From NCBI GenBank assembly GCA_020725545.1, contig DYEV01000003.1:62001-126000 (forward strand): 64,000 bases of DNA, given 5' to 3'. Shown in pieces: positions 49,070 to 50,956 of the stretch. Within the stretch, counting starts at the first letter, position 1, and each line of letters starts with the position of its first letter. The position numbers and the translations under genes were made by a program. The notes under the pieces were generated by a model that was given only the letters and a program-made list of their open reading frames with translations, did no database searches and was not told the origin of the DNA. This stretch comes from Desulfobacca sp. (GTDB lineage Bacteria; Desulfobacterota; Desulfobaccia; Desulfobaccales; Desulfobaccaceae).

Positions 49070-50956
49070 CTACCAGACAATGCTTTCCAGGGACGTCAGC
49101 GGTTCCCGGACCGCCGCCGCTTCCGGCACCGCGGCCAGGTGGGCGGCGAAGCCATCGGCGGTTTTTAAGGCTTCAGGAAAGATCAGACCGCTGCGCTGTT
49201 CCAGCTCCGCCAAGGTCACCTGATACACCTTGAACTCTTTTAAATCCAGGAGCTCCAGCTGATCCAGACTCTGGGTCAACAGAAAGGCCCGGGCTTGCAG
49301 TTGCCCATTTTCCACATAGGCGAGGAGCTTATAGAATTCCCGGGGAATCTTGACTCCCCGGAACTCCCGGTCATCGTCATGGAAGACCGGGCCGCCAATG
49401 ACGCTGACCCGCACATCCTCCACATCCACTTCGGCGAAGACCGCATCTTCCAACCGCCCCCAGAGGCCGCCCAGACTGCTCTGGTTAAAATTATCCATCT
49501 GCGGCGTGATGTTGGTAAAGAAAAAGGAATCTTTATTGGCCTGACGGGCCGCCGCTTCACTGCCCCACAAAAGATCGGCCCGCCGGGCGATGTGTCCCCG
49601 ATCCAGGCGATTATCGGCATACACGGTATCGCCCACCTGCAAAGCCGCGGGGATACGGGGGTCGAAGACAAATTTCAAACCCTTGCGGCTGAGTTTTCTC
49701 AGGCTGCTGCCATCAATATTCCAGGCCACCCAAAAGGCCAGGCGCCGGGTGCAGCTCAGAGCCAGAGAAAAATGAGTGTAATGGATAACGTCGCTGCCGT
49801 CCAGGCGATGGACCTCTGCCGCCAGCCCCGCACTCAAGCGGGGCAGGTCCACCCGCTGCCGGAGGAAATCCGGGGCAAACCCCTGATCCCGGCCCCCGGC
49901 CTGCAGCACCGTTACCGGCTTGGGCACTACCGCCAGTTTCTCAAAGACCGACGCCGGATAGGCGGCCACCGCATATTCGTCGGGATTGCCGGGCCCTTCC
50001 CCGGCAAAGTGGAGGCCGGCCATGACGGTGGTAACCTGGCCGTGGGCATCCTTAAACAACCAGACCGAGCCGGAGTCGCCCCCCATGCTGACTTCACCTT
50101 GGTCGATCGGATAGTCTGGATCGAGGCCGATTTCAAAGCCGCCTACGGTCTGTTCCCCCACCGGCGGTCCATAATTCAGTTTGGTAAGGGTATGTATCCG
50201 GGTGACCATGCCATGGGTCACGGCCGTGGTGCGGCCGCTTTTGACGACTTTGTCACCCAGTTCCGCTTCTCCCAACTTCTCCACTCTGACGCCCAACTCC
50301 AGGACCGTAGGGTCAAAACCCCGATCCTCGAGGCTGGCCAGGGCACAGTCGCCGGCTACGCCTAAATAGGAGCGCACCAGTTTGCCCAGGCGGTTATACT
50401 GCACCCGGTTATCATCATAGGGTCCGGGCTGGACAATGGTGTCGCCGATGGCCCCCGTGGGTCCATGCAGGACGTGCCAGTTGCTGAGCACATAAGGCGT
50501 GCCGTCCTGCTGATCATAGACAATGCAGCCGATAGTACCGGCGCTCCCGGCCACATGCGAGACGCTGATCCCTGGGACGACCGGGTCTCGCCGGATTTTT
50601 CGCGGGTTGCTGGCGGTCTCGGCCACCACTTTAAAATCCGGTTCAAACCGGCGTTGGATCACGTCCGTGGGGACCTCGACGCCGTCAACCATGATGACGG
50701 CCGGGATCAATTCCGTCCCCATTGCCGCCAGAGCCTCGGGCGCAGCCTTGCGGCCCACGGTGAACTGGATGGCAATCTCCCCCGTATCCTCACCGTCTTT
50801 CTTTTTGTAGCCGATACCGACAGAAGTGATGTTAGGATCCTGCAGATAACGTCGACCTTCGGAACGGATAAAGTTTTTGAGGTTTTCTTCGATGAATTCC
50901 GGCGTGATGGCACTCCGGGTCTTTGGTCCGGACGGCGGTTTTGTTTCGGCACTCAT
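49070..50956 (-). CDS. Trypsin-like protease fused to a NUC1-type DNA/RNA endonuclease
   Basis: A 628-residue two-enzyme fusion. Residues 130-345 form a trypsin-like serine protease with a likely triad of His161 (SNWHVL), Asp203 (AGDCALA) and Ser295 (GGDSGS). Residues about 390-570 form a DNA/RNA non-specific endonuclease: LDRGHIARR (the DRGH motif, residues 452-455), TNITPQMDNFNQ and LWGRLEDAV. Residues 20-110 form a further domain with NITSVGIGYKKKDG. There is no signal peptide or membrane segment, so it should be cytoplasmic, whereas most NUC1 enzymes are exported. Start ATG 50956 has AAGGAG upstream. GC content and neighbours look ordinary. A defence or programmed-death role is speculation; the fusion itself is clear. 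Confidence 0.85.
   Translation of the reverse strand: MSAETKPPSGPKTRSAITPEFIEENLKNFIRSEGRRYLQDPNITSVGIGYKKKDGEDTGEIAIQFTVGRKAAPEALAAMGTELIPAVIMVDGVEVPTDVIQRRFEPDFKVVAETASNPRKIRRDPVVPGISVSHVAGSAGTIGCIVYDQQDGTPYVLSNWHVLHGPTGAIGDTIVQPGPYDDNRVQYNRLGKLVRSYLGVAGDCALASLEDRGFDPTVLELGVRVEKLGEAELGDKVVKSGRTTAVTHGMVTRIHTLTKLNYGPPVGEQTVGGFEIGLDPDYPIDQGEVSMGGDSGSVWLFKDAHGQVTTVMAGLHFAGEGPGNPDEYAVAAYPASVFEKLAVVPKPVTVLQAGGRDQGFAPDFLRQRVDLPRLSAGLAAEVHRLDGSDVIHYTHFSLALSCTRRLAFWVAWNIDGSSLRKLSRKGLKFVFDPRIPAALQVGDTVYADNRLDRGHIARRADLLWGSEAAARQANKDSFFFTNITPQMDNFNQSSLGGLWGRLEDAVFAEVDVEDVRVSVIGGPVFHDDDREFRGVKIPREFYKLLAYVENGQLQARAFLLTQSLDQLELLDLKEFKVYQVTLAELEQRSGLIFPEALKTADGFAAHLAAVPEAAAVREPLTSLESIVW

Follow-up and report, generated by a model that had tools for sequence, protein, structure and literature searches.

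Protease-nuclease fusions as such are already known. Trypsin-NucA fusions and operons, termed System 3, were described as a predicted conflict system by Kaur et al. (2020) (PMC7159879). System 3 has been described chiefly from alphaproteobacteria, where its partners are multiple peptidases, EAD1, or STAND proteins; its core components also occur without EAD1, which indicates that it can sometimes do without partners (PMC7159879). LypC, a component of the LypABC system of Caulobacter crescentus, acts in cell lysis, which requires its protease serine but not its nuclease residues (Banks et al. 2026, PMC13236601).

A gene in the window (the whole 64,000-nucleotide stretch of Desulfobacca sp. that was analyzed) codes for a protein that combines a trypsin-fold protease with a NucA (Endonuclease_NS) nuclease, as System 3 does, in some members within one protein (PMC7159879). 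Set against the published account of System 3, the window family differs in being a single gene with a NAL1-type protease and no peptidase, EAD1, or STAND partner nearby; this comparison is with the description of System 3 rather than its member list, which may include the window family. LypC shares the arrangement of an N-terminal S1-fold protease, a linker, and a C-terminal Endonuclease_NS-type domain, and is close in size (about 662 versus 628 residues; catalytic Ser296 versus Ser295) (PMC13236601). LypC and the window gene both lie outside defense islands. LypC works with LypA and LypB (PMC13236601), whereas no partner was found for the window gene, which has no LypA- or LypB-like gene adjacent to it. 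The protease class of LypC, judged from its apparent homologs, is Trypsin_2, and the window protein falls below the cut-off for that family. It would be highly improbable for the window protein to belong to a LypABC/CARD-NLR system whose partners are encoded elsewhere in the genome: the domain order is the same and the catalytic spacing similar, but the protease class differs from that of LypC-like proteins and a search run without a positive control found no LypB-like ATPase in the window genome or in those of seven relatives. Because the architecture is shared but the protease class is different and no partner was found, the window family is set apart as a NAL1-type variant of the known fusions. 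No description of a NAL1-type protease-nuclease fusion was found in the open-access literature, and we know of none with an established function.

The features of the gene and its product are as follows.

49070..50956, minus strand: whole gene, 628 amino acids, with an ATG start at 50956; homologs of the same length start near the same place
50636..50899, minus strand: N-terminal domain, NAL1_N-like, residues 20-107 (structural model; weak Pfam NAL1_N match in 3 of 14 family members)
49922..50629, minus strand: S1-fold protease domain, Nal1_C-like, residues 110-345 (fold search; weak Nal1_C match in 6 of 14)
50474..50476, minus strand: catalytic His161, kept in 41/41 relatives covering the position
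50348..50350, minus strand: catalytic Asp203, kept in 41/41 relatives covering the position
50072..50074, minus strand: catalytic Ser295 (GGDSG), kept in 42/42 relatives
49883..49930, minus strand: variable linker, residues 343-358 (pLDDT below 50 at 350-355)
49160..49813, minus strand: Endonuclease_NS (PF01223) nuclease, residues 382-599 (Pfam E = 9.2e-44)
49592..49603, minus strand: DRGH motif, residues 452-455, in 42/42 fused and 15/15 free-standing relatives
49484..49486, minus strand: Asn491, aligned with the family's metal-binding Asn (42/42 and 15/15; EXOG alignment)
49448..49450, minus strand: Glu503, aligned with the family's metal-site Glu (42/42 and 15/15; EXOG alignment)
49073..49141, minus strand: conserved C-terminal tail PLxSLxDIxW, residues 606-628, past the Pfam domain

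The position, strand, and length of the open reading frame given in the preliminary description are correct, as are its placements of the catalytic triad (H161, D203, S295) and the DRGH motif. Conservation was assessed with 42 fused sequences, of which 41 are complete over the protease positions, and 15 free-standing nucleases. The His-Asp-Ser triad is present in all 41 complete proteases; homologs lacking the triad or DRGH, which would have undermined the original argument, were looked for and none occurred among these 41 proteases and 42 nucleases. Comparison of the window gene with a copy in a sister genome (87% identical) gave an overall dN/dS of 0.09, with purifying selection acting on both domains. 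A chance origin of the fusion is excluded by this ratio together with the retention of the sites in 42 relatives. The GC content of the gene (59.8%) is nearly equal to that of the window (58.4%), and there is thus no compositional sign of recent arrival. As the preliminary description had claimed, there is no signal peptide: the window protein has no hydrophobic N-terminal stretch, and no consistent export signal was found in relatives wherever the start is clear, with the longer-looking ones having uncertain start codons.

Assignment of the protease half required evidence beyond profile searches. No family in Pfam, NCBIfam, or PADLOC matched this half above its cut-off, and a profile search against PDB sequences returned weak alpha-lytic protease matches and nothing better. 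The trypsin-family search proposed earlier gave a Trypsin_2 match of 13.5 bits (cut-off 27.6; Pfam E = 0.13), and an S1-type fold was found instead by structure, so that the protease claim relies on the NAL1 fold match and the invariant triad. An AlphaFold2 model built from 29 related sequences (mean pLDDT 73, pTM 0.50) was searched against the PDB. The top 33 matches were all chains of rice NAL1 (NARROW LEAF 1), followed by human EXOG; the NAL1 matches had E values of 5.5e-14 to 3.1e-10 and target TM scores of about 0.5-0.6, at the moderate model confidence that the pTM implies. NAL1_N (PF25608) and Nal1_C (PF25819) did not match the window protein itself at E values up to 1, and among the 14 family members profiled the best values were weak (0.0063 for Nal1_C and 0.02 for NAL1_N). 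Free-standing bacterial relatives of about 305-350 residues, from the same phylum and elsewhere, have the same layout of N-terminal domain and protease. Some of these exceed the Pfam NAL1_N cut-off (locus L065), and a more distant one is above the Nal1_C cut-off (locus L043). The window protease is accordingly modeled as a NAL1-type S1-fold peptidase that includes the N-terminal domain, which is predicted with pLDDT 82-92 in most blocks of residues 20-107. The roughly 110 N-terminal residues earlier called an extra domain are, by the fold search and the free-standing relatives, a normal part of such peptidases. NAL1 peptidases share this N-terminal domain and S1 protease, and their free-standing bacterial forms differ from the window protein in having no nuclease; plant NAL1 is likewise not known to have one.

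Conservation of the triad points to a working protease in every member of the fused family that carries one. Six positions ahead of the catalytic serine, each of the 28 aligned sequences has I, V, or L and none has Asp, which makes cleavage after Lys or Arg unlikely; the protease is probably trypsin-like in fold and not in specificity.

The nuclease half scores 150.2 bits against an Endonuclease_NS cut-off of 23, and the profile check suggested earlier is borne out over residues 382-599. It matches EXOG and Serratia nuclease by PDB sequence, and EXOG also by fold. EXOG/EndoG and Serratia-type nucleases have the same Endonuclease_NS fold, DRGH-type site, Asn, and Glu; they are exported or mitochondrial and are not known to have a fused protease. 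Between the two halves, the linker differs in length and sequence among relatives. Self-cleavage of the linker at a conserved basic residue is unsupported: no such residue is conserved, with K/R absent from 4 of 28 linkers, which argues mildly against programmed cleavage there. Past the nuclease domain, the final Trp of the tail is found in 41 of 42 fused and 15 of 15 free-standing relatives, and the Trp-ending tail may serve in control or docking. A search for a NuiA-type inhibitor gave no match, in a run in which no control matched.

The fusion is a real, conserved family with a wide but patchy distribution across phyla. Full-length relatives (51-87% identical) were found in Saccharothrix, Actinokineospora, Streptomyces, acidobacterial MAGs, Bacteroidota, and a Nitrosocosmicus MAG, with the MAG-based host assignments subject to possible binning errors, and others lie on plasmids of Streptomyces, Tsukamurella, and Rhizobium. 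Of 297 genomes sampled from the window's phylum, one carries the fusion, the window's own. It is also present, with the gene order preserved, in a sister genome from the genus. Where sister genomes were examined for an empty site, differing flanks precluded a clean comparison. Among 200 genomes of the Saccharothrix family, 17 of the matches listed span the fusion. A viral scan yielded no confirmed relative; phage origin was rejected, as matches in phage records are weak and nearly all within the nuclease part. In one Streptomyces genome (L034:8010-10707), a putative transposase gene has inserted into the fusion gene and divides it in two.

Each half also occurs alone, as free-standing NAL1-type proteases and free-standing nucleases. 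A tree of 72 nuclease domains, built by a quick method, with several long branches and a root for drawing only, placed NAL1-fused and free-standing nucleases in one clade (SH-aLRT 96). The largest free-standing group sits inside the fused ones, with ten actinobacterial nucleases nested beside the Saccharothrix fusions (SH-aLRT 97), and the window nuclease groups with Bacteroidota, an acidobacterium, and an archaeal MAG (SH-aLRT 98). The nesting indicates that the nuclease has been retained in lines that lack the protease, and there too it has no export signal. The protease has apparently been lost in some lines of the clade, and the topology fits such loss along with transfer between phyla. 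Free-standing nucleases of this clade at five loci (L109, L110, L111, L112, and L114; positions about 3.3-7.8 kb in each) are arranged tail to tail with a gene whose product is about 954 residues long and at L109 has NNH1, NACHT, and weak LRR matches. This pairing is probably shared synteny of related genomes.

A second protease class, Trypsin_2, is also found joined to this type of nuclease with an identical domain order, and these fusions fall outside the NAL1-fusion clade. The LypC-like proteins examined score above the Trypsin_2 cut-off. Trypsin_2-nuclease proteins occur in LypABC-like operons in Paracoccus and Paraburkholderia, and in NLR-like, MoxR/SAV_2336, and CHAT/S8 surroundings. Solitary ones with no obvious defense partner are found on plasmids of Pseudomonas aeruginosa and Paracoccus (L051:5140-7068, L146:5896-7773). 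A LypC-like protein on a Paracoccus plasmid (L053:5140-7116) has lost DRGH and other nuclease residues and kept its triad; a trypsin gene and an AAA/NACHT-like gene lie in the same operon. A general decay of the nuclease in LypC-like proteins, as opposed to the window family, was considered and proved mostly wrong: among those checked, one protein, from Paracoccus, had lost the site. The fusion of both NAL1-type and Trypsin_2 proteases to related cytoplasmic nucleases, with one and the same domain order, suggests that the pairing itself is useful. This observation, and the retention of the fusion over long distances, speak against two separate enzyme roles joined for co-expression without functional coupling, a reading that the variable linker and the independent occurrence of each half would allow and that we consider quite unlikely.

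The window gene is flanked by amtB-glnB on one side and isochorismatase-LysR-ispG on the other, and all of these genes share its strand. These neighbors are housekeeping genes and include no defense gene, in agreement with the earlier observation that no partner from a known defense system is adjacent. PADLOC gave no match for the fusion protein; its match to an FtsX-like permease reflects the permease domain of that protein. The proposed survey of homolog neighborhoods for defense islands found neighborhoods that are not conserved, with no conserved neighbors beyond synteny within related genomes. Across unrelated hosts (L005, L007, L020, L047, L049, L003), the fusion is often next to degradative or oxidizing enzymes, including animal-type peroxidase, GMC oxidoreductase, M6/S8/C1 peptidases, LodA, patatin, and tyrosinase; a common cause was not found.

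A scavenging or clean-up enzyme acting on post-lysis debris or damaged nucleoprotein, with no regulated defense role, is possible and rather unlikely. A broad-specificity enzyme pair with no partner or immunity gene would suit such a role, as would the location of several relatives near S8, C1, and M6 peptidases, patatin, and peroxidase. The absence of an export signal and the patchy spread by transfer count against it, and the strictly conserved N-terminal domain and C-terminal tail suggest regulation. Delivery into other cells as cargo of a contractile injection system is very unlikely. On one Streptomyces canus plasmid, the fusion gene adjoins a baseplate J/sheath-like cluster that includes a patatin protein, and a sheath match is present in 11 of the 23 relatives' genomes checked. 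However, neither the window genome nor the other 12 of the 23 has one, which rules out such delivery as a general role, and a shared loading domain was not seen.

Our main reading, to which we give a probability of roughly 0.4, is that the cytoplasmic NAL1-protease/nuclease protein is related to the trypsin-NucA conflict proteins (System 3 and LypC) as a single-gene form that has spread horizontally. The NAL1-type protease, comprising the N-terminal domain and S1 domain, would be tethered by a flexible linker to a DNA/RNA-nonspecific nuclease that stays latent until triggered. In the window branch the nuclease would probably be the executing part, as suggested by its persistence alone in relatives, and the protease a controlling or second effector part that may act in trans on a target or inhibitor and not on its own linker. 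We infer the conflict or cell-death role, the effector function of the nuclease, and its latency. The reading is favored by active sites that are invariant in the family, purifying selection on both domains, fold matches to NAL1 and then EXOG, free-standing nucleases nested among fused ones, patchy spread over phyla and plasmids, and the parallel Trypsin_2 fusions in NLR-like, MoxR/SAV_2336, and CHAT/S8 contexts, an architecture described as a conflict system. Weighing against it are the missing nearby partner, PADLOC match, and conserved neighbors, the lack of a conserved linker cleavage site, and an amtB-glnB/isochorismatase-LysR-ispG setting unlike a defense island. LypC, the closest tested analog, also lyses cells without its nuclease residues (PMC13236601).

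The preliminary description had proposed a defense or regulated-death effector. This is reasonable by analogy with System 3 and LypC; it is weakened by the non-LypC protease type, the lack of a partner, the dispensable nuclease of LypC, and the lack of any link between the fusion family and phage resistance. A specific form, in which a one-gene regulated-death or anti-phage system uses its NAL1-type protease to sense or remove a block and so deploy the attached cytoplasmic nuclease, is doubtful. If it were true, plant NAL1 would be a relative of a bacterial conflict protease.

The family brings NAL1, a rice yield protein, close to bacterial proteases of possible conflict proteins. As a single-gene, partner-free protein, it may also serve as a system for testing protease-nuclease coupling, including the role of the nuclease that LypC leaves open.
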